Assembly: GCA_002951815.1 (NCBI GenBank)
Contig: CP019454.1
Coordinates: forward strand, 1,798,001-1,862,000
Origin: Sulfobacillus thermotolerans
GTDB taxonomy: Bacteria; Bacillota; Sulfobacillia; Sulfobacillales; Sulfobacillaceae
DNA: 64,000 nt
Direction of reading: 5' to 3'
The position numbers and the translations under genes are program-made. Below the pieces are notes generated by a model, which was given only the letters and a program-made list of their open reading frames with translations, ran no database searches and was not told where the DNA came from. Shown piece after piece: positions 29,643 through 42,541 of the stretch (position 1 is its first letter; the number at the start of each line of letters is the position of its first letter).

Positions 29643-30305
29643 CTACGAATTACGGGGAAGGCGATGGCCCCAGGCCTTAATCAGTCCCCCCAATGCTCGC
29701 AGCTCCCCACTGATTTGGAATAGCATAAGATACTGGGCAGGATGCGTCACTCCAAACAAAGAGCCCCATATGGTAGGATGCTGTGCAAGGGTTTTGCCAT
29801 ATTGCACCGCTAATAACAGGTCTTGAGCAAGTTTCGTTTCGTCCCTTGCGGCGGCGCGCAGCGATTCTGGAAGCGCACCGACTTGGATAGTACGGTCAGC
29901 CTCCCCCGCTCTGTGAAAATCATCTAGCGCGGAGGGGAGGGTACGCGTGAGGGTCGATCAATGGTGAAGAAAGCTTGCGACCAGGGATGAAGAATCCAAG
30001 GTGCGATTCGCGGGAGAAAGGGGAAAGCCTTCAATACCCGCTGCTGTCCAATACACACCGTTAACTGTGGCGGCAGCGTTGTGGAATTTCTCTCCTACCC
30101 CAGGAATCCATCCTACGTATATCAGGCGGCCGAGGGCCTCGTGCGCTTCGGTGAGGGCGGGTGGTTTCCGGTTATTATCGCGGTATTGAGTTGCTTCCTT
30201 CTCTGCCCATTGCTTCGCGTCACGTTTGATGTCTGCCCATCTTGTCATAGCGCACGACGCGGTCTTTCCAACGGCCAGAAGGGATTTTTCGCGGTTCCAC
30301 TGCAT
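29643..30305 (-). pseudogene. 220-codon frame of unknown function interrupted by one in-frame UGA
   Basis: On the minus strand a 115-codon frame from the ATG at 30305 ends at TGA (29960-29958). The same frame then stays open for exactly 104 more codons to a TAG at 29645-29643. Both halves read like protein: EAHEALGRLIYVGWIPGVG in the first, DETKLAQDLLLAVQYGKTLA and YLMLFQISGELRALGGLIKA in the second. I do not recognise the family. The simplest reading is a CGA-to-TGA nonsense mutation in a decaying gene. Because a tRNA-Sec gene is nearby, selenocysteine insertion was considered. A hairpin (CCUCCGCGCU with AGCGGGGGAGG) begins 22 bases after the UGA, but the context (FLHH-UGA-STLT) is not a redox motif. 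Confidence 0.5.
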
Positions 30306-30328
30306 ACGGGCCTTTCGGCCTCACTTAG

Positions 30329-30439
30329 GGACAAACGGGGGCAAATGCGCATCACGGCACTCTGCGTAAGATCGTCATTACGGTCTATCAGCCGGATCCG
30401 ATGCGATGGGAGGAAGGTTTTTCAAGGAGGCAACCATGA
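30329..30439 (+). pseudogene. C-terminal remnant of a DUF4258-like toxin
   Basis: A short frame encodes HHGTLRKIVITVYQPDPMRW followed by EEGF, closely like the C-terminal end of small DUF4258 toxins as I recall them. The N-terminal two thirds is missing, with an in-frame stop just upstream. It is directly followed, with overlap, by a YgiT-like zinc-finger start, the normal partner order. Confidence 0.5.
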
Positions 30440-30573
30440 CCTGTGTGATTTGCAAGACCGGAACACTGGAATCTGGCAAGGCTACGGTCGCCGAAGTCTA
30501 CCTTGCCGCTGATCAGGCTGATAAAGCGGGCGTGGAAGTCGACGCGTGCGAATTTCATCATGTCTCAGCGTAG
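30436..30573 (+). CDS. truncated YgiT/MqsA-type zinc-finger antitoxin
   Basis: A 45-residue frame with a strong AAGGAGG site. MTCVICKTGTLESGKATV is the first half of a YgiT-type zinc finger (first C-x-x-C). The second half, expected to bring another C-x-x-C, reads VEVDACEFHHVSA with a single Cys and ends early, so the gene is probably frameshifted. It forms a remnant toxin-antitoxin pair with the preceding DUF4258-like piece. It may still be translated but is unlikely to fold normally. Confidence 0.5.
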   Translation: MTCVICKTGTLESGKATVAEVYLAADQADKAGVEVDACEFHHVSA

Positions 30574-30802
30574 CTGCTCATATCAAGTTCTAGTGCGTTT
30601 TTGGGGGCCGATGGGCCGCAAACATGGATTAGCGAAGCCGTTTTTTCTCAAGTCCTACGCGAACGGATTCTGATTTGTTAGGCGTTTTTTGATCAAGGAC
30701 GGCCGTGGCAATAACTGAACGTGGATGTTGTTGAACTGGCCCCGAAACTCCGGTGGTCACTGTGGTACGGTATACTTAAGAGACAATGGGAGGTGTACGG
30801 TC
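30574..30802. other. short spacer before the MNT/HEPN remnant
   Basis: No gene seen. Near its end is a TATACT-like -10 and a GGGAGG ribosome site in front of the broken nucleotidyltransferase frame. Confidence 0.4.
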
Positions 30803-31457
30803 ATGGATCGTGCAGCGATTCTCCAGGACTACATTCCATAAGATGGTGGTGGCTGGGCATCCGAAGCCATTGTGCTTGTTGGGTCGGAAGTAAGCCATGT
30901 GGCAAACGACGAAAGCGACTTCGATTTCTTGATCATCGAACAAAGTTCAAGCATCCTTTGCCAACGGAGCAAATATCAAATGGCCCTGCGACCCCGTGCG
31001 AACCCCGAAAGAAGTGTGGAAATCCTGCAAAAGGGGCGATGGGGGTATGCTAGTCGCGTACCTTCGGGACTACTTGTTTTAGCGGCAGCAGATGTGACCA
31101 CGGTTCACCATCTCGTGGTGCCCGGGTTGTACCATAGCACCTGCTATCATGCTCAACAAGCTGCCGAAAAGGCGTTGAAAGAGTCTTGTTACACGAAATG
31201 GCGGTCTTTCCCATCGCTTAAGTCGATTGGTCGATGCTATCGGCCGCTCAAGCCGCCTGTCCGGAATTCTCAATGGAATAGGCAAAATTTAATGGGTATG
31301 CAGTGGATATGCGTTGCGATTCCCAAGTTCTATCGATATCGCTGGGAATGAGGCTGAAACGGACATCGCCGCAGCCCAAGACAGTCTGGATCATGCGCGA
31401 CGGTTTCTTGGCGAATCCAGCCCGCCTCCGGTTACCAGCCCTAACCTATTGGCATGA
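30803..31457 (+). pseudogene. decayed MNT nucleotidyltransferase / HEPN toxin-antitoxin module
   Basis: The frame starts MDRAAILQDYIP at an ATG with GGGAGG upstream and meets TAA at 30839-30841. It then continues in frame with AIVLVGSEVSHVANDESDFDFLIIE, a minimal nucleotidyltransferase motif (G-S ... D-x-D). Further on LYHSTCYHAQQAAEKALKE is the start of a HEPN domain. After at least one frameshift the frame SIDIAGNEAETDIAAAQDSLDHARRFL gives the HEPN C-terminal helix, ending at TGA 31455-31457. In working modules the HEPN RNase is silenced by the MNT partner. With one nonsense codon and frameshifts this one is dead. Confidence 0.75.
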
Positions 31458-31577
31458 GTCAGGTATCGTTGTCAGCGCGTTACGCCTCAAGCCCTACGGC
31501 ATAGCGGCCAGCATAGGTTTTGTTAACCACGTTTGTCATCAATACCTAGCGTACAAATGGATTCATGAGGGGGCCAG

Positions 31578-32054
31578 ATGATGGCATTTTCGTTCCGCAC
31601 TATCGATGTGACAAGGGACCTCAGTACATGCATCGACTTTCGGAAGGATTCGTTTCGGGTGAGTTTTGGCTCCGAAAAGGGCTTTAATCTCGGTGAATAC
31701 GTTAAACTTCTGACGGAACGGACCGTTCAATTTCCGTGGGGATATGTGATGGTGGAAGAAAACGGAGATACAGTTGGGCAAATGGAGATTTTCACGAGAG
31801 ACCATGAGGAGAGGTTGATAGGGTTTGTCAGTCTATATTACCTCGTTCCGTCGATTCGCGGACAAGGAAAGGGAGCACAGTTGTCTGATTATGCGGAACA
31901 TTGCTTCCGTAACCAGGGGGTCACTGAATATCATTTACGAGTATCCCCGGCCAATCTTCGTGCTGTTCGATTCTATCAAAAGTGCGGTCTAATCAAGCTC
32001 CAAGAAGAAGGTTCTGATCATACGGTATGGAGAATGGGTAAGAAGTTGATTTAA
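31578..32054 (+). CDS. GNAT-family N-acetyltransferase
   Basis: 158 residues, full GNAT length. FVSLYYLVPSIRGQGKGAQLSDYAEHCF is the beta-strand plus acetyl-CoA loop (R-G-Q-G-K-G), and LRVSPANLRAVRFYQKCGLIKL is the C-terminal motif. The N-terminal part with DSFRVSFGSEKGFNLGEY is not diagnostic, so the substrate is unknown. It has a GGGGG ribosome site and appears intact amid decayed neighbours. It may be a cargo gene of the accessory region or a resident gene at its edge. Confidence 0.82.
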   Translation: MMAFSFRTIDVTRDLSTCIDFRKDSFRVSFGSEKGFNLGEYVKLLTERTVQFPWGYVMVEENGDTVGQMEIFTRDHEERLIGFVSLYYLVPSIRGQGKGAQLSDYAEHCFRNQGVTEYHLRVSPANLRAVRFYQKCGLIKLQEEGSDHTVWRMGKKLI

Positions 32055-32367
32055 TGAGTAATGGACGTGAAAAAGGTCGTGGATGGCGATCGTATCAGGA
32101 TGATTGTTCGGTCCGTGTATTGGCTCGAGATGGGCGGAGGCATGTCGAGTTTGATAGGATTGGTTCATGGGGGAACAGAACTCAAGAGCATCAAGAACTT
32201 GGAATCGACTTTCTGCGTGATCTTTCTATCCAGGTGTGTGAGCCATCTCGAAATCCTTGGGGTCACCGCTTTAAGGACGATGCCACCTGCCGCACGGGCA
32301 CGCGAAAAGTAGGCTATACTAACATAAAATGTTCGGATTGATTGATGTGGTGAGGAGATGACGTCGC
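32055..32367. other. gap with one unconvincing small frame
   Basis: A frame of 83 codons (32061-32312, plus strand) starts soon after the acetyltransferase stop, but its sequence shows no motif and I do not support it as a gene. A TATACT-like box lies near 32317. Confidence 0.35.
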
Positions 32368-32649: not shown

Positions 32650-32756
32650 GAGTAGGTCTCCCACAGATTCGGAAGCAAAAGTTTCTTCATGAAATTCGTA
32701 GGCGAGAGATCGTTTTACGCCGGGTTTTCGGATTCATGGTTAGAGAGGCGGATGTC

Positions 32757-33317
32757 ATGGCAAGTCACGAAGGCGAGTTGCTGAGCCAAATTGCCCAGGG
32801 AAATCAGCAAGCCATGATGGAATTTTATGATCAATATTTTGGCATTGTGGCAGGGTATTGTCGCAAGATGATTGCTGATCGGAACATTGCAGACGAGGTT
32901 ATTCAAGACACCTTTATGCAGGTGTGGCGAACGGCGGCTGTCTATGATGCCGGAAGGGCGCCGGTGACCGGGTGGCTGTTAACGTTGGCGCGGAGTCGAG
33001 CGATAGATCGGCTTCGCAAGGTGGCACGCGAACCGACCCAAGCAGGTCTCGACGAAGCGGTCGGTATGGAGGGCGGCCCGAGCGACCAGGTCGAGACGGC
33101 CGTGGTCAAGCGAGAAGCGGAGACCACGCTTCATCAAGCGATGGAAACCTTGCCGGCTGCCCAGAAAAATATGATTGAAGCGGTGTATATTCGGGGACAA
33201 ACTGCGGAAGAAGCGGCCAGGCGCCAAAACATCCCGGTAGGGACGGCGAAAACGCGATTGAGATTAGGCTTGGAAAAATTGCGAAGGGCCTTGGAGGTGT
33301 ATACGAGTGGACCATGA
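32757..33317 (+). CDS. ECF-subfamily RNA polymerase sigma factor (SigK/RpoE-like)
   Basis: About 187 residues, the size of group 4 sigma factors. Region 2 is seen as AMMEFYDQYFGIVAGYCRKM and NIADEVIQDTFMQVWRTA. Region 4 is seen as LPAAQKNMIEAVYIRGQTAEEAARRQNIPVGTAKTRLRLGLEKLRR, the DNA-binding helix-turn-helix. The start at 32757 has GAGAGG eight bases upstream. The stop overlaps the anti-sigma gene by 11 bases, so the two are co-translated. It should direct a regulon of envelope or stress genes under control of its partner. Confidence 0.92.
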   Translation: MASHEGELLSQIAQGNQQAMMEFYDQYFGIVAGYCRKMIADRNIADEVIQDTFMQVWRTAAVYDAGRAPVTGWLLTLARSRAIDRLRKVAREPTQAGLDEAVGMEGGPSDQVETAVVKREAETTLHQAMETLPAAQKNMIEAVYIRGQTAEEAARRQNIPVGTAKTRLRLGLEKLRRALEVYTSGP

Positions 33318-34002
33318 CAGACTAGAGCTCAACTTACCGCTTTTGGCAGCAGGCTCGTTGCCTTCAGATGAAGCGGCAGAACTCGAAGTCCATCTCCAGA
33401 CTTGTGTCAGTTGCCAAAAAGCCTATCATGACTACCAGGCCTTGTTGCAGCAGTTGGACCCGCATGAGGACGATGTGACGGAAGACTGGGACCAACACGA
33501 CCGTTTACGCCAAGAATTTCTTGAAAAGCTGAACGCCGAACATATTACACCCCAGACGGCTACCAATTGTCGCCACACAGGATTCCTCCCATCGGCAGTA
33601 GGGTGGGCAGCCGTTGTGGTGATCGGGTTAGGAGGCTGGGCTAGTGCATATCACTTGCATCATGTGGCCGCTCAGCAAGAACAGGTCATTAGACTCATGG
33701 CCAGTGGTCAACGACTGGATTTGACATCACCGCATGGGCCTTACCGTGCCGCCTTGTATCTGTCCAAGAACCGCGCCGTTGTTTTGGCAAATCATCTGCC
33801 CGTTCCGGGCCACGGGCAAACCTATGAAGGTTGGTGGATTCAAGGCGGACATCCCGTTGCGGCGGGAACTTTTGGTTCCACACCTTCGGCGTTGAAAGTG
33901 CCCGTACCGCACCCAGAAGCATTCGCCATTACGGTAGAGCCTGTTGGTGGCACGAAAACCCCAACTACCCCGATTTTGGTCATGGCTACCTTGCCGGGTT
34001 AG
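33307..34002 (+). CDS. zinc-binding anti-sigma factor, RskA-like
   Basis: 231 residues. The N-terminal anti-sigma zinc motif is H-x3-C-x2-C in LEVHLQTCVSCQKAYHDY. A single membrane helix follows at about residues 97-117 (VGWAAVVVIGLGGWASAYHL), then an external domain with YEGWWIQGGHPVAAGTF and a beta-rich RskA-type C-terminus. It would hold the upstream sigma factor at the membrane and release it upon an external signal. The GTG start overlaps the sigma gene. A terminator follows. Confidence 0.88.
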   Translation: MDHDRLELNLPLLAAGSLPSDEAAELEVHLQTCVSCQKAYHDYQALLQQLDPHEDDVTEDWDQHDRLRQEFLEKLNAEHITPQTATNCRHTGFLPSAVGWAAVVVIGLGGWASAYHLHHVAAQQEQVIRLMASGQRLDLTSPHGPYRAALYLSKNRAVVLANHLPVPGHGQTYEGWWIQGGHPVAAGTFGSTPSALKVPVPHPEAFAITVEPVGGTKTPTTPILVMATLPG

Positions 34003-34061: not shown

Positions 34062-34877
34062 TTATGCGGACTGGGACGAGTGTTCACCCGAACCGGTTAT
34101 GTGAAGAGCCTTTTTGGTGGAGGAACAGCCGTATAAAGCAAGCGCTAATAATGCCCACAACGCTCCACTGTTGAAGTCCGTCGCATAGGGCAGCCAAAAT
34201 TGTCCTGCTTGTTGCATGGTAATCCAAGCCCAAATGGACAAAACGATAAGGCCTGCAGCACCTAAGCGGCGGAGGCGCGGCCAAATAAGTGCAGCCAAAG
34301 CCCCTAGAACGCCAAGCGCAAAGAGATGGCTGGGAACTGTGGAAAATCCGGTTGTGGCAAAGGGATAATACCAGGATTGCCACGCGGTTTCGAGCCATCC
34401 CGCTAGACTTAGGGTGAGCAACAGAGGTTTAGCGAAACGGTTCCACTGGATGGGGGCATCGGCACTGGGCCAAAGAGCAACGCCAAGGAGGGCATAAAGT
34501 AGTGCGGCCCCGGGTGCTCCGTCTTTGAGACTCCACTGGCCGAACGCAAGATTGCCTAGTGCTTCGCCAAACAGCCATACCAAAAGGGCCCAAACAATGG
34601 ATAGGGTTAGAGCTGTTTTGAGATAGCGATTGCTTAGCAGCATCACCCCAATGGATATTTGGGTGAGAGTAATGATTAAATTAAAGGGCCATTCAGCATG
34701 CGATCCCCAGAAGATTTCCCACTCCAGGAGATGTTGAAGCCAAAGCGGTTGACCCGGGAGATTTGACGAGATGTTTGCGGTAATAAATCCGTTTGTAAAC
34801 ATTTGTGGCTTTAATTGCAGTAAACCATCGCATAACCAAATGGCGCCCAAAATCCGTTGAATAAGAATGCGCGTCAT
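34062..34877 (-). CDS. multi-pass membrane protein, DoxX/DoxD-like
   Basis: 271 residues with about seven hydrophobic segments. The N-terminal ILGAIWLCDGLLQLKPQMF and NLIITLTQISIGVMLL stretches resemble DoxX/DoxD-type quinone-linked membrane proteins, but no catalytic residues can be named. The start overlaps the sortase stop by four bases, so it is the second gene of a sortase operon. It may have an envelope or respiratory role. The exact function is unknown. Confidence 0.6.
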   Translation of the reverse strand: MTRILIQRILGAIWLCDGLLQLKPQMFTNGFITANISSNLPGQPLWLQHLLEWEIFWGSHAEWPFNLIITLTQISIGVMLLSNRYLKTALTLSIVWALLVWLFGEALGNLAFGQWSLKDGAPGAALLYALLGVALWPSADAPIQWNRFAKPLLLTLSLAGWLETAWQSWYYPFATTGFSTVPSHLFALGVLGALAALIWPRLRRLGAAGLIVLSIWAWITMQQAGQFWLPYATDFNSGALWALLALALYGCSSTKKALHITGSGEHSSQSA

Positions 34878-35986
34878 GAAGCACCTCCTGATGACATTAA
34901 TCGTTCGAAATGCACTTGGCGAATGAAGAGCGTGTGGCCGGTAAACTTGGTGTCCATAGTAACGGAAAACAGTTGATTATTGATCCGGACAAACGGGTCA
35001 CGAAGGGTAATGGCTAGCGGTTGGCCTGAGGCATTGAGGCGAAAGAGCAAGGATAAGGTTCCGGGAAATGCAATCGCCTTGGCGTTGACATAAGGGTTGC
35101 CTACCGCATGAGTCCAAAGAGCTTGCATGGCAGACGAGTTATCCACTTGGCTTGCGTCTTTAAACGCCAACCAAAGATTCACAGCCTCCGTTGCGGCTTG
35201 CAGTGGTAAAACAGATTGCTGGTAGGTAAAATCGGCTGCTGTGCCGGCGTCTTGATAGCGCAAGGTACCCATCGGTAGAGAATTGTCTTGCAGAGACAAA
35301 GAATAGTGGTCCGTCACAAAAGACGGGATCATGGCGTGATAGGGTGAGGCGGGGGGCATGAGAACCCTTGGGGTCGCATGGTCCGTCAGGACCGACCGGA
35401 CCAGTCGACTCTCAACGATATATCGATTCGGGGTCAAGTACAGGGCATTTAACGGATCACAGGCTTCAAGATCTAATGTTGATGCGGGACTGACGGGTAA
35501 TCCTGCCGTATCTGAAACAATTTCATGGCCTGTGACATCAAACCAAAATGTGCCTTGAGATGTTGTCACAATCAAGCGATTGCCTGGTCGTAATTGGTTG
35601 AGATGTCGGAAATAGGTCGCGTTATGCGCGGCAATAACGCTAGTGCCTAATTGGCCTGGCATGACTGAACCAGGATAATGACCGGCAGCTAGCAGCAGCT
35701 CGCCATAGGCGGTGCCTTGGACGATGGGCACTTTCAAATGGAGCGAGGGGATCCAAAGGGTTGCACAGCGTTGACCGAGTTTAGGGTTGTCTTGTAGAGG
35801 GGCTGCTTGCAGTGATTGGGGCTCTGGGGATAAGGATTGAGATGGCTGTATGGTGCGAGACGGCTTAACCGTAGGTAAAGGAGCAGCAAATTGGCTGGTC
35901 CATTGCACCGCGGGGCCAATCCATAACGGAATGGCCAGCATGCCTAGACCCAAGGCGGCCAGACTTATTGCGAATGTTCGACGCAT
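34874..35986 (-). CDS. sortase (transpeptidase) with an extra C-terminal domain
   Basis: 370 residues. An N-terminal membrane anchor (ISLAALGLGMLAIPLWIG) is followed by a sortase domain at about residues 70-200: LWIPSLHLKVPIVQGT, the catalytic His in SVIAAHNATYFRHLNQL, the catalytic Cys in LEACDPLNALYLTPNRYIV and the conserved Arg in ESRLVRS. A further 160-residue C-terminal region of unknown role is not usual for sortases. It attaches proteins carrying an LPxTG-like signal to the cell wall. The divergent neighbour at 36174 ends in such a signal (SPVTG), so it is the likely substrate. Confidence 0.86.
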   Translation of the reverse strand: MRRTFAISLAALGLGMLAIPLWIGPAVQWTSQFAAPLPTVKPSRTIQPSQSLSPEPQSLQAAPLQDNPKLGQRCATLWIPSLHLKVPIVQGTAYGELLLAAGHYPGSVMPGQLGTSVIAAHNATYFRHLNQLRPGNRLIVTTSQGTFWFDVTGHEIVSDTAGLPVSPASTLDLEACDPLNALYLTPNRYIVESRLVRSVLTDHATPRVLMPPASPYHAMIPSFVTDHYSLSLQDNSLPMGTLRYQDAGTAADFTYQQSVLPLQAATEAVNLWLAFKDASQVDNSSAMQALWTHAVGNPYVNAKAIAFPGTLSLLFRLNASGQPLAITLRDPFVRINNQLFSVTMDTKFTGHTLFIRQVHFERLMSSGGAS

Positions 35987-36173
35987 GGTATTCCCTCCTC
36001 GTTATCGTGCTTTACTTGGGCCTACGTAAAAATCCTCGGATGCGATCTCTTCCACAAAAAATCCAGGAAATCTTCTCGAAAAAAAACCTTAAATTTTTTC
36101 TCCAAAAAGAGATCGGGTTCGTTCTGCGTTCCGTATATGAAGTGAAATCAGTCATCACGAGGAGGAAAAATTC
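35987..36173. promoter_or_regulatory. divergent promoter region of sortase and its probable substrate
   Basis: A 187-base gap with both genes reading outward. It holds a perfect 9-bp inverted repeat CGATCTCTT (36043-36051) and AAGAGATCG (36107-36115) separated by an A/T-rich 55-base stretch. A GAGGAGG ribosome site lies just before the plus-strand gene. Confidence 0.4.
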
Positions 36174-38591
36174 ATGCGTTATCTGACAAAAATCTTGAGT
36201 GCGACAGCCCTGAGTGTGGCGACGATTGGGGCATCTGTATCCATGGCCTTTGCTGCTTCACCGAGCTCGTCGATGACCGCGACTCCTGGGGTCTCATTGC
36301 GCCTTACATTGGATCAGTTGCTGGGAGAGCATGCCTTAGTACTCGAAGAACGCATGCAAGCATTATATAGTGGGAATACCGCGCAATATAATGCCCTAAC
36401 ATCCATTATGAACCAAGATACGCAACAACTGACTCAGGCAGTGTCGTCCATTTATGGCAGTGCCGCGGGGACAAAGTTTGCGTCTTTGTGGAACCAGCAC
36501 ATGCACTTCTTTAACTACGTGAATGCGGTAAAGGGGGAAAATGCGGCGCAAGAGGCGTTAACGCAGTATAAGAACCAATTTAGCCAATTTTTAGCGGGGG
36601 CCAATCCGAACTTGAGTGAGAGCACCTTGTCCACGGTGCTGCAAGAGCACATCAATCAAATTACCACAGCCTTCAATGACTATGCCCAGGGTCAAGATAG
36701 CGCTGCGACGCAAGAACTCGTGCAAGATTATAACTTGATGTACACGGCAGGCGGATATCTTGCGGGCGGTATTGCAAAACAATTTCCTGCCAAGTTTGAC
36801 AACCAGTCCCCATCGACTCCGGCTGTCAATCTACAAGTGGCACTCGATCAACTACTGGGAGAACATGCCATGATTTTAGAGTTGGCGATGCAAGCTCTCT
36901 ATAGTGGCAACCAAGGTTTGTATCATGCTTATATGATGCAAATGAATGCGAATACGCAAGCATTGACTCAGGCCATAGCCAGTATTTACGGGACGGCTGC
37001 GGGTCAGCAGTTCGAGCATTTGTGGGAGCAGCACCAGTACTTCTTTACCTATGTGAACGACGTTAAAGATGGCAATACGGCCGGTGCTAGGGCCGCGCAA
37101 GAGGCGTTAACGCAGTATAAGAACCAATTTAGCCAATTTTTAGCGGGGGCCAATCCGAACTTGAGTGAGAGCACCTTGTCCACCGTGTTGCAAGAGCACA
37201 TCAATCAAATTACCGCCGCATTTCAAGATTATGTGGCGGGCAATGATGCGGCCGCAACTCAAGAGTTGATGCAGGACTATAATCTGATGTATACGGCGGG
37301 GGGATATTTAGCTCAGGGCATTGTCGCGCAATTTCCAAGCAAATTTGATCACACGGAGACGAATACTGCGGCCGGAAACTTGCGGGTGGATTTGGATCAA
37401 CTGCTTGGTGAGCACGCGTTGATTCTCGAATTACGCATGCAAGCCTTATATAGCGGCAATACCAATCTCTATAATGCCTATACCGCCGTCATGAATCAAA
37501 ATACGCAGTCGTTGACAGCGGCCATAACCAGTATTTACGGGCAAAGTGCTGGACAAAAGTTTGAATCGTTATGGAACGAGCATATGTACTTTTTTTCCTA
37601 CGTTACGGATTTGGTCGACGCGAATAGCGCTCAAGCCACACTCACGCATTATAAGGACGCTTTCGCGGCATTTTTAGCAAGTGCTGATCCACATCTCAGT
37701 GACAGCGTCTTATCCTCAGTGCTCCAAGAGCATATTGATCAAATTACGGCAGCGTTTAATGATTTTACACAGGGCAATCAGGCAGGAGCGGTGCAGGAAC
37801 TCACCGCGGATTATGGGTTGATGTACCAAGCCGCCGATTATTTGGCATCGGGCATTGAAGCGCAGTTTCCCGAGAAATTTGCCAGTACCTCTCCGAATAC
37901 TGCGGCGGGATCATTGGTAAGTTCTTTGGACCAATTGTTAGGGATGCATGCTTTCTTGTTGGAAATGCGAATGCAGGCCCTTTACGCCAATAATACCGCC
38001 GCGGAACAAGCCTTCACGGCAGCTATGAATCAAAATACCACCAGTCTCACTCAAGCCATTGGCAGTATTTATGGCCCGAAGGCGGCGAGCGAGTTCGAGA
38101 CCTTGTGGAACCACCATATGCTCTTCTTCACCTATGCAGAGGATATTAAAGATGGCAACGCGTCTGGAGCTCAAGCCGCACAAATGGCACTGACGCAATA
38201 CAAGAACCAGTTCAGCCAATTTTTGGCCGCGGCCGATCCGCATCTGAGTGAAAGTACGCTATCGACGGTTTTACAAGAACACATCAACCAAATCACCACT
38301 GCCTTTCTCGATGACACTAAGGGAGAAGCTGCGGCGTCTGATGCCAGTTTGTGGCAAGACTACAATTTAATGTACACGGCGGGCCAATATCTGGCGTCAG
38401 GCATTGTCGCTCAATTTCCGAATAAGTTTGGTTCAACGCCTGCGGTAACGCGGCCTGCAACGACGCCTACAGCCATGATGAAAGGAGCGACATCGCCCGT
38501 TACGGGCCTGCCCTTATTGCCGATTATGGGAATCGGAGCTGGGTTGATGGGAGCAGCGGGACTGTTATTAAAGACGCGACGGCAATCCTAG
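36174..38591 (+). CDS. cell-wall-anchored protein with four helical repeats and an SPVTG sorting signal
   Basis: 805 residues. A signal peptide (MRYLTKILSATALSVATIGA..., cleavage near AFAA) precedes four repeats of about 185 residues starting near residues 40, 220, 403 and 580. Each repeat has LDQLLG-x-HA, a QALY segment, SIYG, LW-x-x-H-x-x-FF-Y, QFLA-x-A-P-LS, VLQEHI-QIT and a closing QFP-KF. The repeats look all-helical, with His residues at fixed places, so metal or haem binding is possible but unproven. The C-terminus is SPVTG, a hydrophobic helix and KTRRQS, a sortase signal. The sortase is encoded divergently next door. The repeat family is one I remember only as uncharacterised in Gram-positives. 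Confidence 0.82.
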   Translation: MRYLTKILSATALSVATIGASVSMAFAASPSSSMTATPGVSLRLTLDQLLGEHALVLEERMQALYSGNTAQYNALTSIMNQDTQQLTQAVSSIYGSAAGTKFASLWNQHMHFFNYVNAVKGENAAQEALTQYKNQFSQFLAGANPNLSESTLSTVLQEHINQITTAFNDYAQGQDSAATQELVQDYNLMYTAGGYLAGGIAKQFPAKFDNQSPSTPAVNLQVALDQLLGEHAMILELAMQALYSGNQGLYHAYMMQMNANTQALTQAIASIYGTAAGQQFEHLWEQHQYFFTYVNDVKDGNTAGARAAQEALTQYKNQFSQFLAGANPNLSESTLSTVLQEHINQITAAFQDYVAGNDAAATQELMQDYNLMYTAGGYLAQGIVAQFPSKFDHTETNTAAGNLRVDLDQLLGEHALILELRMQALYSGNTNLYNAYTAVMNQNTQSLTAAITSIYGQSAGQKFESLWNEHMYFFSYVTDLVDANSAQATLTHYKDAFAAFLASADPHLSDSVLSSVLQEHIDQITAAFNDFTQGNQAGAVQELTADYGLMYQAADYLASGIEAQFPEKFASTSPNTAAGSLVSSLDQLLGMHAFLLEMRMQALYANNTAAEQAFTAAMNQNTTSLTQAIGSIYGPKAASEFETLWNHHMLFFTYAEDIKDGNASGAQAAQMALTQYKNQFSQFLAAADPHLSESTLSTVLQEHINQITTAFLDDTKGEAAASDASLWQDYNLMYTAGQYLASGIVAQFPNKFGSTPAVTRPATTPTAMMKGATSPVTGLPLLPIMGIGAGLMGAAGLLLKTRRQS
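36546..36634 (+). repeat. DNA-identical 89-bp segment in repeat 1 of the surface protein
   Basis: Identical to 37095-37183 in repeat 2, including silent positions, while sequence on either side diverges. This suggests recent gene conversion or recombination between repeats. Confidence 0.85.
37095..37183 (+). repeat. DNA-identical 89-bp segment in repeat 2 of the surface protein
   Basis: Partner of 36546-36634. Repeats 3 and 4 encode similar residues here but with different codons. Confidence 0.85.
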
Positions 38592-38641: not shown

Positions 38642-38736
38642 TATGTTAATAAACAAAAAAACCTTGCAGGAATTTTATGGCAAAAACCGAATATTTTGAT
38701 CAGATTCATGGACTTAACATAAAGGGGGACGGTTTC

Positions 38737-40629
38737 ATGAAACGGACATGGGCGGTACTAAGTACCGCGACGGTTTTAGCCCTACCGGCCTTGGCTCTAC
38801 CGGGATCGGCCGCTGCCAGTCAATATGGACGAGTCTCGGGGAATATTGCCCATGCGTTGCTGGCTCAATCCACAATGACTGGGGCAGCAAACACGTCGGC
38901 GAAAGTTACCCTATATGTGGGGTTTAATTTTGTCAAACCGGCCAACATGCCAAGTCTTGCGCAGTACATTCAGGATACTGAAACGCCGGGCAATGCGTTG
39001 TTTCACCATTTTCTTACGGAGACCCAGTTTGCTGCGGACTACGCGCCATCCCCGGATCAAGTCGATGCATTGCTTAATTATTTGGCGCAATACCATATTG
39101 TTCCGGTCACTGTCCATGGTCACGCCGTCCAATACCCTTTAGGCATTAATGTGACCGGGACAGTAGGCGACGTGGAGCAGGCGTTTTCGGTTTCCATCAA
39201 CAATTATCTTTCGGCGGGAAAATCCTATATTGCCAACGATGAAAACCCCTCGCTGCCAATGTCCTATACGTATCAAGGTACGTCATATAATTTAGCGCGT
39301 TTAGTTTCCGGGGTCGCAGGGATGACCACCTATAACGGGATTGGACCCCATACCGTGCAACAGTCCAATGTGACGCATCTCAATGACCAATCCGGGCCCG
39401 TCGGCTATTCACCGCAGCAAATTGCTGCGGCTTATAACGCCACGCCATTGCTGGCGCATCACATTACAGGAAAGGGGGTTACGATTGGGGTGGCCACTTT
39501 GGCGCCCTTTGTGCCAAGTGATGCGACGTATTTTTGGCAGTATTATGGCATTAACCGAACCGGGAGCCTCAGTGAAGTTGGAGTCGACGGGCAAAGCACG
39601 ACCGCTTCTGGGAAAGGAATAGGGGGGAGTGAAACCTCATTAGATGTTGAACGTTCTGGCGCCATGGCGCCAGGGGCCAACATCATTGTGTATGAAGCAC
39701 CGAATACCACTACGGGCTTTATTGATCTCTATGACACGGTCGCTACAGCTGACCAAGTCCAAGTCATGACGACGAGTTGGGGAGAAGCGGAGTTTTTCGA
39801 ACCGTTCTCTTATGCCTACATGCTCAACCAAGCGTTTATGCAAGGGGCCGCTGAAGGGATGACCATGATTGCAGCGTCTGGCGATGATGGGGCATATGAC
39901 GGCTATCCTACCGACAAACAGCTCGCGGTCGACTCGCCCGCGTCAAGCCCCGATATTTTGGCGGCTGGTGGGACGACGTTGCCTATGGTGTCGACCCAGC
40001 CGAACGCGAATCCGATATCACCCGGGACCTCAGAAACGGGATATATTCCCATTCCTAACGGATCGATTGCCATGGTGGGAGAGCAAGGCTGGGGATGGCA
40101 ATATTTATTGCCTTATTACGCTAATTTTGGTGTCAAATCTGAAGCCATATGGGAAAGAGATATTTATCCCTTCGGATCAACGGGAGGATATAGCGCGTTT
40201 TGGACGTCATCGACTCCTGACAATGGCGCGAGTCTTTATTGGTGGCAATCGGGTACGGGGAATGCCAATGCTCGGGGTGTGCCCGATGTGGCGTTTGATG
40301 CCGATCCGTTTACAGGCTATGCGATTTACGACACGAATTCGCTCTATACGACCGAATCTGACGGTTGGACCAATGGATGGGGCGGTACGTCTTTTGCCGC
40401 ACCGCAATGGGCAGGGATTATGGCCTTGATCGACCAAGATCTCCGGGGCCCGCAAGGATTGGTGAACGCGGCATTTTATGCGAATGCCAATGGCGGGGGA
40501 TTTCATCCCATCACGCAAGGCAACAATTGGTATTATAATGCGGGACCTGGATGGAACGCCGTCACGGGCCTTGGCTCTCCTGACGTGGCCCAGTTGGCGA
40601 AAAGTCTTGCGGCGTGGAATCAAGAGTAG
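38737..40629 (+). CDS. secreted sedolisin-type serine-carboxyl peptidase (S53, kumamolisin-like)
   Basis: About 630 residues. A signal peptide (MKRTWAVLSTATVLALPALA) leads into a pro-kumamolisin domain (FHHFLTETQFAADYAPS...VDALLNYL), then the peptidase. The catalytic Glu and Asp lie in GIGGSETSLDVERS, and the Ser in WGGTSFAAPQWAGIMAL. A late D-x-x-x-G-x-N-like stretch would bind calcium. Sedolisins act at low pH and resist pepstatin, which suits an acidophile that scavenges external protein. The ATG at 38737 has an AAAGGGGG upstream. An earlier in-frame ATG would spoil the signal peptide. Confidence 0.92.
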   Translation: MKRTWAVLSTATVLALPALALPGSAAASQYGRVSGNIAHALLAQSTMTGAANTSAKVTLYVGFNFVKPANMPSLAQYIQDTETPGNALFHHFLTETQFAADYAPSPDQVDALLNYLAQYHIVPVTVHGHAVQYPLGINVTGTVGDVEQAFSVSINNYLSAGKSYIANDENPSLPMSYTYQGTSYNLARLVSGVAGMTTYNGIGPHTVQQSNVTHLNDQSGPVGYSPQQIAAAYNATPLLAHHITGKGVTIGVATLAPFVPSDATYFWQYYGINRTGSLSEVGVDGQSTTASGKGIGGSETSLDVERSGAMAPGANIIVYEAPNTTTGFIDLYDTVATADQVQVMTTSWGEAEFFEPFSYAYMLNQAFMQGAAEGMTMIAASGDDGAYDGYPTDKQLAVDSPASSPDILAAGGTTLPMVSTQPNANPISPGTSETGYIPIPNGSIAMVGEQGWGWQYLLPYYANFGVKSEAIWERDIYPFGSTGGYSAFWTSSTPDNGASLYWWQSGTGNANARGVPDVAFDADPFTGYAIYDTNSLYTTESDGWTNGWGGTSFAAPQWAGIMALIDQDLRGPQGLVNAAFYANANGGGFHPITQGNNWYYNAGPGWNAVTGLGSPDVAQLAKSLAAWNQE

Positions 40630-40888: not shown

Positions 40889-41761
40889 GCATGTCAGGGT
40901 GGCGATGGGTCAGTAGTCTCGCTCAGTCAGAAAGATGTGGAGTCGCTAGACGTACAAAGAAGCCCGCTTCTCATGACGGTTGACCCTGGTTGAGGATTTG
41001 TGAATTGCATTATGTGCGCAAAAAAAGTATGGCTCGGGGCCATTGTTGCCGTCTCGAAACGGCTCCAATCAGCCCTTTTGTCTTCTTTCCTATGTTTGGG
41101 TCTATTCTTACATGGTAGACTGAATGCCTAACTGCTGATTTGTCGACACCACGGAATTTTTCACTAATTTAGCAGCTTTTTAGACTGGACTTTGCTTCCG
41201 GATAAGCGTCTTCGCCAAGGACGCCAGAGGGCTTTATATCGTGGCAGGGGACCGAAGGCTCCGAATACTAGGCATGTCATACGCATCCCAAAAGATTGAG
41301 AACACATCCAACGGCCAAGGCTACCATGCCGCTGCTATGGCAGCGACAGCGTTATTAATTATGATTTGCACTAGAAGATTGGGATCGACTTGGAGCCTTG
41401 GAGAAAACTGACCGCCACCGCCAATGCGTGAAGGATGTGGCGGTCATGGCCACGATTAAGCACGGTAAATGGGTGCCGATAACGAAGCGTGATGGTCCAC
41501 AAGGTGGGCTGTTGGCGGAGTGTACTGACGGCACCATATTGTTGTTACAAGGAATAGTTGTGATATCGCCATTTGGTTCCTCACTTGTTCCCTAATGGTG
41601 CATCCGGATGACGCCGAAACGAGGAAAAAAATACAACCCCAAAAAATTCTATGGAAAAAGAAGGAAAATCAACAGAAAGAACAGAACACACAATATGTAC
41701 CATAGATATGCTGTTAAAGGGATTGACCATCCATTTGCTCTTACCGAGGAGGAATTTATTC
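40889..41761. other. long gap before the G1 peptidase gene
   Basis: About 870 bases with only weak frames. The one at 41398-41595 (65 codons, with KHGKWVPITKRDGPQGGLLA) could be a tiny gene but lacks a ribosome site and a known family. The last 150 bases are A-rich and contain the AGGAGG site of the peptidase gene, so a long 5' leader is possible. Confidence 0.4.
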
Positions 41762-42541
41762 ATGCGTGTTCGTTCATGGATTATGACAGCTGCGATGGCA
41801 TCTTTTGTCGCGGGTGCGCCGACTATGGCTATGGGATCGTCGGCTCTTCCTTTAATTACCCATGCTCCAAGACTTAAACTGTCCCGCCCATCTCATGCAA
41901 TTGGCAACTATGGATGGTCTTCGAGCAATTGGTCCGGCTACGCCGTAACCAATGGGCCCTACACCCAAATTACGGGAAGTTGGATTGTCCCAACGGTTAC
42001 AGCAGGGCATGGGTCGACCTATTCGTCGGCGTGGATTGGGATTGACGGCTTTAATAATAGCGATCTAATTCAGACAGGCACAGAACAAGACTATACTGGG
42101 GGATCGGCACAGTATTCGGCATGGTGGGAAATTCTTCCGGCAGCAGAAACGGTCATTAACGAACCGGTTGCGCCGGGCGACCAGATGGATGCGTCTATTG
42201 TGAACGACGGCAACGGGGTATGGACTATCACGCTAAAGGATGTCACGGAAGGCTGGACCTTTACAACCAATCAGGACTACTCAGGACCCGGTGCGTCTGC
42301 TGAATGGATCTTGGAGGCTCCGACCATCGGAGGGCATGTCGCTACATTGGCCAACTACGGGGAGACAACGTTTAATCCCGGCACAGTCAATGGGGGAGCC
42401 AATCCTGATTTCACGACCGAGGATGGGGGCGTCATGATTCAAAAGAACAAGCAAGTTTCGACACCCTCGGTTCCGGACAGCGATACGGATGGGTTTAACG
42501 TGGCCTATGGCCCCACAGCGCCTAGCGCTCCCGCCTCGTAA
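41762..42541 (+). CDS. secreted G1-family (eqolisin-like) glutamic peptidase
   Basis: About 259 residues. The signal peptide is MRVRSWIMTAAMASFVAGAP. The mature part begins near NYGWSSSNWSGYAVTNGPYT and follows the eqolisin pattern: ITGSWIVPTV, SAWIGIDG, the catalytic Gln in LIQTGTEQ and the catalytic Glu in GASAEWILEAPTIGG. G1 peptidases are acid-active and pepstatin-resistant, first known from fungi and later seen in bacteria. The ATG at 41762 has AGGAGG at the right distance. It forms a functional pair with the sedolisin upstream. Confidence 0.88.
   Translation: MRVRSWIMTAAMASFVAGAPTMAMGSSALPLITHAPRLKLSRPSHAIGNYGWSSSNWSGYAVTNGPYTQITGSWIVPTVTAGHGSTYSSAWIGIDGFNNSDLIQTGTEQDYTGGSAQYSAWWEILPAAETVINEPVAPGDQMDASIVNDGNGVWTITLKDVTEGWTFTTNQDYSGPGASAEWILEAPTIGGHVATLANYGETTFNPGTVNGGANPDFTTEDGGVMIQKNKQVSTPSVPDSDTDGFNVAYGPTAPSAPAS

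Follow-up and report, generated by a model that had tools for sequence, protein, structure and literature searches.

The window, that is the whole 64,000-nucleotide stretch of Sulfobacillus thermotolerans DNA that was analysed, contains a sortase gene and, in divergent orientation, the gene of a large secreted surface protein, with 187 bp between the two start codons (Table 1). As judged from profile matches and alignments, the identities of the genes and the conservation of the module are strongly supported. What is new here is that the sortase/surface-protein pair adjoins an ECF sigma factor/RskA-type anti-sigma factor pair, and that the divergent intergenic region bears ECF-type promoter motifs. 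Downstream of the surface protein, the window encodes a kumamolisin-type protease (38677-40629, +) and a peptidase A4, an acid protease (41651-42541, +). On the other side, positions 29958-32341 hold only short overlapping ORFs, by appearance decayed genes.

Table 1. Features of the module, with positions counted from the first nucleotide of the window.
Feature	Position	Strand	Basis or remark
Degenerate motif GAGATC-N17-CGGA, sigma gene	32706..32732	+	Read directly; one mismatch
ECF sigma factor, SigK-like	32736..33317	+	Pfam Sigma70_r2/r4, NCBIfam
RskA-type anti-sigma factor, zf-HC2 + RskA_C	33307..34002	+	Pfam and NCBIfam above cut-off
271-aa polytopic membrane protein	34062..34877	-	Start overlaps sortase stop by ATGA
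Sortase (peptidase C60), 370 aa	34874..35986	-	Pfam PF04203; N-terminal membrane anchor, catalytic H121/C176/R188, predicted NTF2-like C-terminal domain
Predicted NTF2-like C-terminal domain of sortase (residues ~258-365)	34892..35215	-	Structural match to 3blz
ECF-type promoter motif GAGATC-N17-CGTA, sortase gene	36023..36049	-	36 bp before ATG
ECF-type promoter motif GAGATC-N17-CGTA, surface-protein gene	36109..36135	+	38 bp before ATG
805-aa secreted surface protein: signal peptide, four tris-His six-helix domains (predicted fold), SPVTG sorting signal	36174..38591	+	ORF and repeat alignment; homologues in G008, G018, G019, G020, G024, G006
Repeat 1 (residues 40-217), His 53, 109, 159	36291..36824	+	Repeat alignment
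Repeat 2 (residues 218-400), His 231, 287, 342	36825..37373	+	Repeat alignment; AlphaFold2-modelled domain, pLDDT 94.5
Repeat 3 (residues 401-578), His 414, 470, 520	37374..37907	+	Repeat alignment
Repeat 4 (residues 579-760), His 592, 648, 703	37908..38453	+	Repeat alignment
Cell-wall sorting signal, hydrophobic helix and basic tail	38478..38588	+	Alignment of 14 family signals

By its Pfam match (PF04203 on residues 78-196, 71.4 bits for a cut-off of 26.6) and by its catalytic residues H121, C176 and R188, invariant across 7 aligned sequences, the window sortase is a genuine one. None of the NCBIfam sortase classes is above its cut-off (SrtD 84/140, D 79/165, E 68.5/160, C 38.2/160, F 23.4/166 bits). 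The window sortase has the fold and the catalytic triad in common with class D and class E sortases, the class D-type models scoring best and class E next, but it stays under the curated cut-offs of 140, 165 and 160. The protein continues beyond the catalytic domain with an extension of about residues 200-370, which the homologues of the family retain. Because the structural model is weak overall (pLDDT 50), interpretation was confined to residues 258-365, a moderate-confidence part of the model (pLDDT ~62-87). Over most of this domain the model matches 3blz (Z 8.4, rmsd 2.7 A, 102 residues aligned), and the extension is therefore predicted to be NTF2-like. C. difficile SrtB cuts SPKTG, PPKTG, SPSTG and SPQTG peptides (PMC4155245), and the window sortase would likewise act on an SPxTG-type signal. 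It differs from SrtB, with its (S/P)PXTG substrates, by the predicted NTF2-like domain and by its link to ECF promoters, and among the NCBIfam matches listed for it there is none to class B. Relatives of the membrane protein coupled to the sortase also belong to the module in G024, at two loci of G020 and in the MAG loci L145-L149. An apparent fusion of sortase and repeats in L146 and L147 was rejected as an artefact of ORF calling.

The surface protein starts with a signal-peptide-like N-terminus, and continues with four repeats of about 180 residues each; towards the C-terminus, SPVTG (residue 774) is followed by a hydrophobic stretch and then by KTRRQS. All elements of a sortase-anchored layout (signal peptide, five-residue motif, hydrophobic stretch, basic tail) can be recognized, the canonical LPXTG being absent from the protein and SPVTG standing instead. 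Alignment of 14 signals of the family gives the consensus AT[SAT]P[VTA]TG[LIVF]PxxP. The repeat layout is not a matter of chance, since the other repeats share 61-65% identity with repeat 3 and homologues built in the same way occur in other genomes. The main observations of the first-pass annotation, namely a sortase with a C-terminal extension, a divergent large secreted protein ending in SPVTG, a hydrophobic stretch and a basic tail, and four repeats with histidines in fixed positions, are thus borne out, three histidines being in register in each repeat. The literature library that was searched yielded no paper describing SPVTG sorting, the repeat domain, or a sortase bearing an NTF2-like domain.

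The same annotation had regarded the sortase and the surface protein as dedicated to each other and had proposed to search the genome for other SPVTG proteins. The search gave 31 pattern matches, with a real sorting signal only in the window protein and in one further protein of 246 residues; a profile search with the sorting signal agreed, its third match being FtsW-like. The genome (G000) has three sortases for two convincing ATSPVTG-type substrates. This small number, the divergent arrangement of the genes and the promoter motif that they share support a dedicated sortase-substrate pair. The 246-residue protein (C1:1994293-1995030, -; L111; C-terminus SPVTGKPFRADAVTGLALVALGGSVLWWTRRRNAS) is encoded ~7 kb away from another sortase belonging to this family (C1:1986693-1987694, +), and GAGATC-N17-CGTA is absent from that locus. 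In other Sulfobacillaceae, unrelated ATSPVTG/APVTG proteins adjoin the same sortase family (L099:4969-6042, L104:3718-4818, L105:6456-7991, L106:5110-6189, L107:4165-5301). These proteins have two or three repeats of the type ..DFTQHGFPTV..TPGQATSVSANGITV.., and scans of those from L099 and L105 gave no match in Pfam or NCBIfam.

As for regulation, the best model for the sigma factor is that of the SigK subfamily (PRK09646), yet with 139 of 226 bits the match is below cut-off. The anti-sigma factor passes all its thresholds (RskA_C 63.8/29.4, zf-HC2 25.7/22.2, NCBIfam anti-sigma 118.5/100 bits). The pair resembles ECF systems with a SigK-RskA-type anti-sigma factor in its RskA_C and zf-HC2 domains, in its best model and in its linked surface-protein target, but the sigma factor falls under the SigK cut-off and the target family has no name. 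GAGATC-N16..18-CGTA occurs exactly twice in the window, both times in the divergent intergenic region, once per gene and in the correct orientation, for an expectation of 0.16; none of 100 shuffled sequences reached two matches. As the motif was read from upstream regions of the relatives together with the window, this count is only partly independent as a test. The first clue had been an enrichment of dyads upstream of the repeat genes in distant Bacilli, where the top dyad was present in 23 sequences as compared to at most 7 in shuffles. In 215 kb from Sulfobacillaceae relatives there are six motif matches, five in front of a repeat gene and one in front of the G008 sortase gene, which is unlinked. 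In 482 kb from Bacilli there are 25 matches to TGATCC-N14..17-CGTTA, of which 22 directly precede a repeat gene and the other 3 the sigma gene. As the regions had been chosen around repeat or sortase genes, the counts test position within the regions and not whole genomes. Across the G000 genome the motif is hardly enriched (10 matches, 6 for a reversed control) and is therefore meaningful only by its position at these genes. The degenerate copy in front of the sigma gene implies that the real sigma start lies downstream of 32736, probably at an ATG near 32757.

It might be argued that the window simply holds an ordinary housekeeping sortase pair free of ECF control, next to which the motifs and the sigma factor are incidental. 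The pairing of the same sortase family with unrelated ATSPVTG proteins at L099 and L104-L107, where the motif is absent, would agree with such an idea. However, within the fetched regions the motif matches only at these genes, distant lineages included, and also at the sigma gene, which makes the idea hardly credible. Genes for sigma and anti-sigma factors were detected in six Sulfobacillaceae loci, the window included, and in about half of 51 Bacilli regions; in the other half they were not found beside the gene. Promoter linkage appears strongly supported, and we infer that the sortase and the surface protein belong to an ECF sigma regulon, since a shared promoter motif is found at the sigma gene and at the targets and is conserved in relatives. 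In Shewanella, the RpoE2-ChrR type has TGATCC-N-CGTATT (PMC4336711), which the Bacilli motif with its -35 element resembles, and from this likeness a redox-type inducing signal may be guessed. Single-copy homologues in Nocardioides (L301:945-1598) and Methylocystis (L302:3264-3977) also have a gene for an RNA polymerase sigma factor in their vicinity.

The repeat domain is found well beyond Sulfobacillus. Among Sulfobacillaceae, proteins carry four copies in G008, G018, G019 and G020 and two in G024 and G006; a MAG named Sulfobacillus is one of the relatives. A second four-repeat gene of G020 (C1:2140416-2142567, L095) is split over two frames in repeat 2, which may reflect the decay of a duplicate or a fault in the assembly. 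When the phylum and three other families were searched with a profile, the domain was found in 55/148, 17/101 and 29/80 genomes of Bacilli, usually as two copies per protein. Single-copy relatives of ~190-230 residues include plasmid records of Nocardioides, Methylocystis and Bradyrhizobium. All three histidines are kept in 218 of 219 distinct near-full domains, the lone exception having no normal first helix in the called frame, and three non-Bacillota relatives outside the profile retain them as well. Their invariance is thus strongly supported at the level of the alignments. Almost as constant are the Tyr-Gly that follows helix 2 and a Gln close to the C-terminus. No Pfam or NCBIfam model matches the domain in the proteins scanned. 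Pfam matches on the repeat (FANCI_S3, VitD-bind_III, CUE, others) were rejected as matches to helix composition, no stretch passing alone, and the only PDB sequence match, the naphthalenediimide binding protein 9dm3, is marginal (E 0.002 and 0.021). Record names are misleading: domain proteins are called 'glycosyltransferase' or, as in Planococcus versutus (L304), 'copper amine oxidase'. The proteins with the latter name have two copies of the same tris-His domain, and no amine-oxidase catalytic domain was found in them. The label may stem from the Cu_amine_oxidN1 tail that some relatives bear and that the window protein does not.

Anchoring varies across these relatives. The first-pass annotation had expected dependence on a sorting signal. 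Such dependence is not general, the repeat proteins of G018, G019 and G006 having no such signal. In the 51 Bacilli regions, the repeat protein has an MPxTG-type signal in 30 and no signal in 21. Most of the 21 have another kind of C-terminal tail, identified in L150 as the Cu_amine_oxidN1 domain. A sortase is adjacent at 21 of the 30 loci with a sorting signal and at none of the 21 without (Fisher p 1.7e-7; counted by hand). These patterns indicate that the domain is attached to the surface in different ways. Class F gave the best model for the three Bacilli sortases scanned, with scores just under cut-off. Two class F-like sortases adjoin two-domain homologues (L281:2269-3267, -; L287:2757-3776, -), and their C-terminal extension reads as a fibronectin-type domain.

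The structure prediction that had been suggested for one repeat was carried out on repeat 2. AlphaFold2, with 21 sequences, gives six helices, and an up-down bundle is thus predicted with high confidence. Foldseek found no match in the PDB at E<=0.001, hence no clear relative there. The designed protein sc-apCC-6 (8qad; Z 9.6, rmsd 4.7, 142 residues) and rhodopsins (Z ~7) share the six-helix up-down arrangement but have no sequence relation to the repeat; with VIA-align, Z values below 13 are no evidence of relatedness for helical bundles, and 7-10 is within the unrelated range. Hairpins 1-2 and 3-4 are related to each other, His on His (HHalign score 27.6 vs at most 10.3 in column-shuffled controls); hairpin 5-6 shows a weaker relation in the same register.

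From helical phase and height, the histidines of helices 1, 3 and 5 would lie within 1.5 A of the middle of their helices and point 3, 4 and 42 degrees off the direction of the hydrophobic core. When the helices are arranged as an idealised open hexagonal barrel, the triad ranks within the closest 0.03% of residue triples. The models therefore support a convergence of the three histidines at one level of the bundle, facing the core. Histidines far apart and exposed at the surface had been named beforehand as counting against a metal site. Followed up in part, this question is answered by a placement of the residues at mid-height and core-facing, not scattered over the surface. Their C-beta atoms are ~11-12 A apart in the idealised barrel, which is wide for a single tris-His metal site. 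Of all His, Asp, Glu and Cys positions in the 219 domains, none but those of the three histidines reaches 88% conservation.

Taken together, the conservation of the histidines and their inferred geometry make a metal or cofactor role the most likely function, and a buried site formed by the three histidines is plausible. A hemerythrin was rejected (PF01814, 14.6 bits vs a cut-off of 25.3), and so was a ferritin-like di-iron protein, because no Glu or Asp reaches 88% and there is thus no invariant Glu with EXXH pairs. A c-type cytochrome was likewise rejected, the 805-residue protein being free of cysteine and hence of CXXCH. The latter result also bears on the idea envisaged at first, in which the acidophile would use a haem or metal redox centre to transfer electrons outside the cell or to oxidise metals. 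Conserved histidines within a surface-located bundle of helices would suit such a centre, and in Planococcus versutus a plastocyanin/azurin-family gene (L304:3089-3601) is divergent from the repeat protein of a plasmid homologue, a possible copper hint that does not recur. Against it, there is no cysteine for haem attachment, three histidines at one level round a core fit an ion better than a haem, and redox partner genes do not recur. Moreover, the domain with its three histidines is common in several Bacilli families far outside the acidophile lineage and is present in Nocardioides, Methylocystis and Bradyrhizobium, and it is often found in proteins that have no sorting signal. An acidophile-specific role is thereby not supported, and a redox centre of this kind appears very improbable.

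It may also be imagined that the histidines form a buried polar or hydrogen-bond layer without metal, the bundle serving as a pH- or stress-responsive switch or as a scaffold (spacer, adhesin, S-layer-like cover). Metal-handling or redox partner genes were sought next to the domain in Bacilli and no recurring ones were found. At an extracellular pH near 2 histidine is normally protonated, which counts against a metal site. The belt positions on neighbouring helices, Asn43 and Tyr98, are polar too, and tandem duplication to two or four copies would fit a spacer or a surface coat. Yet conservation at Asn43 and Tyr98 is below that of the histidines, and the near-absolute conservation of the latter over a divergent set, in several phyla and in single-copy forms, exceeds the usual structural need. 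A purely structural layer is thus rather unlikely, though far less so than the redox centre.

Returning to a metal or cofactor binder, the following scheme may be envisaged. The RskA-type anti-sigma factor would release the SigK-like sigma factor, and RNA polymerase would start at the two back-to-back GAGATC-N17-CGTA promoters, one leading to the four-domain surface protein, the other to the sortase and the coupled membrane protein. After export of the surface protein, its SPVTG would be cut by the sortase (C176/H121/R188), the NTF2-like domain assisting somehow, and the protein would be joined to the cell wall, displaying its four tris-His six-helix domains. Each domain would most likely bind a transition metal ion or a similar small cofactor in a buried site made of the three histidines and nearby Asn, Tyr and Met, and the bound metal or cofactor would be sequestered or buffered during envelope stress. 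The metal function and the inducing signal are the least certain elements. For the scheme as a whole, a small ECF regulon whose output is a wall-anchored tris-His surface protein and probable metal or cofactor binder, we see about an even chance. Put more generally, and a little more tentatively, the unnamed domain would be a cross-phylum extracytoplasmic bundle of six helices, made up of three related hairpins and holding a buried cofactor site of three invariant histidines. It would serve as the dedicated output of a SigK/RskA-like ECF stress response, and different sortases would have come to anchor it at the cell surface separately.

For many ECF sigma factors, neither signals nor targets are known. 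Here, sequence is enough to name the target, the promoter and the anchoring enzyme in dozens of genomes, so that the signal and the function of the ECF module become testable in culturable Bacilli. The domain itself has no Pfam or NCBIfam model and no solved relative was found; if it binds metal, it would represent a new extracellular metal-binding fold.
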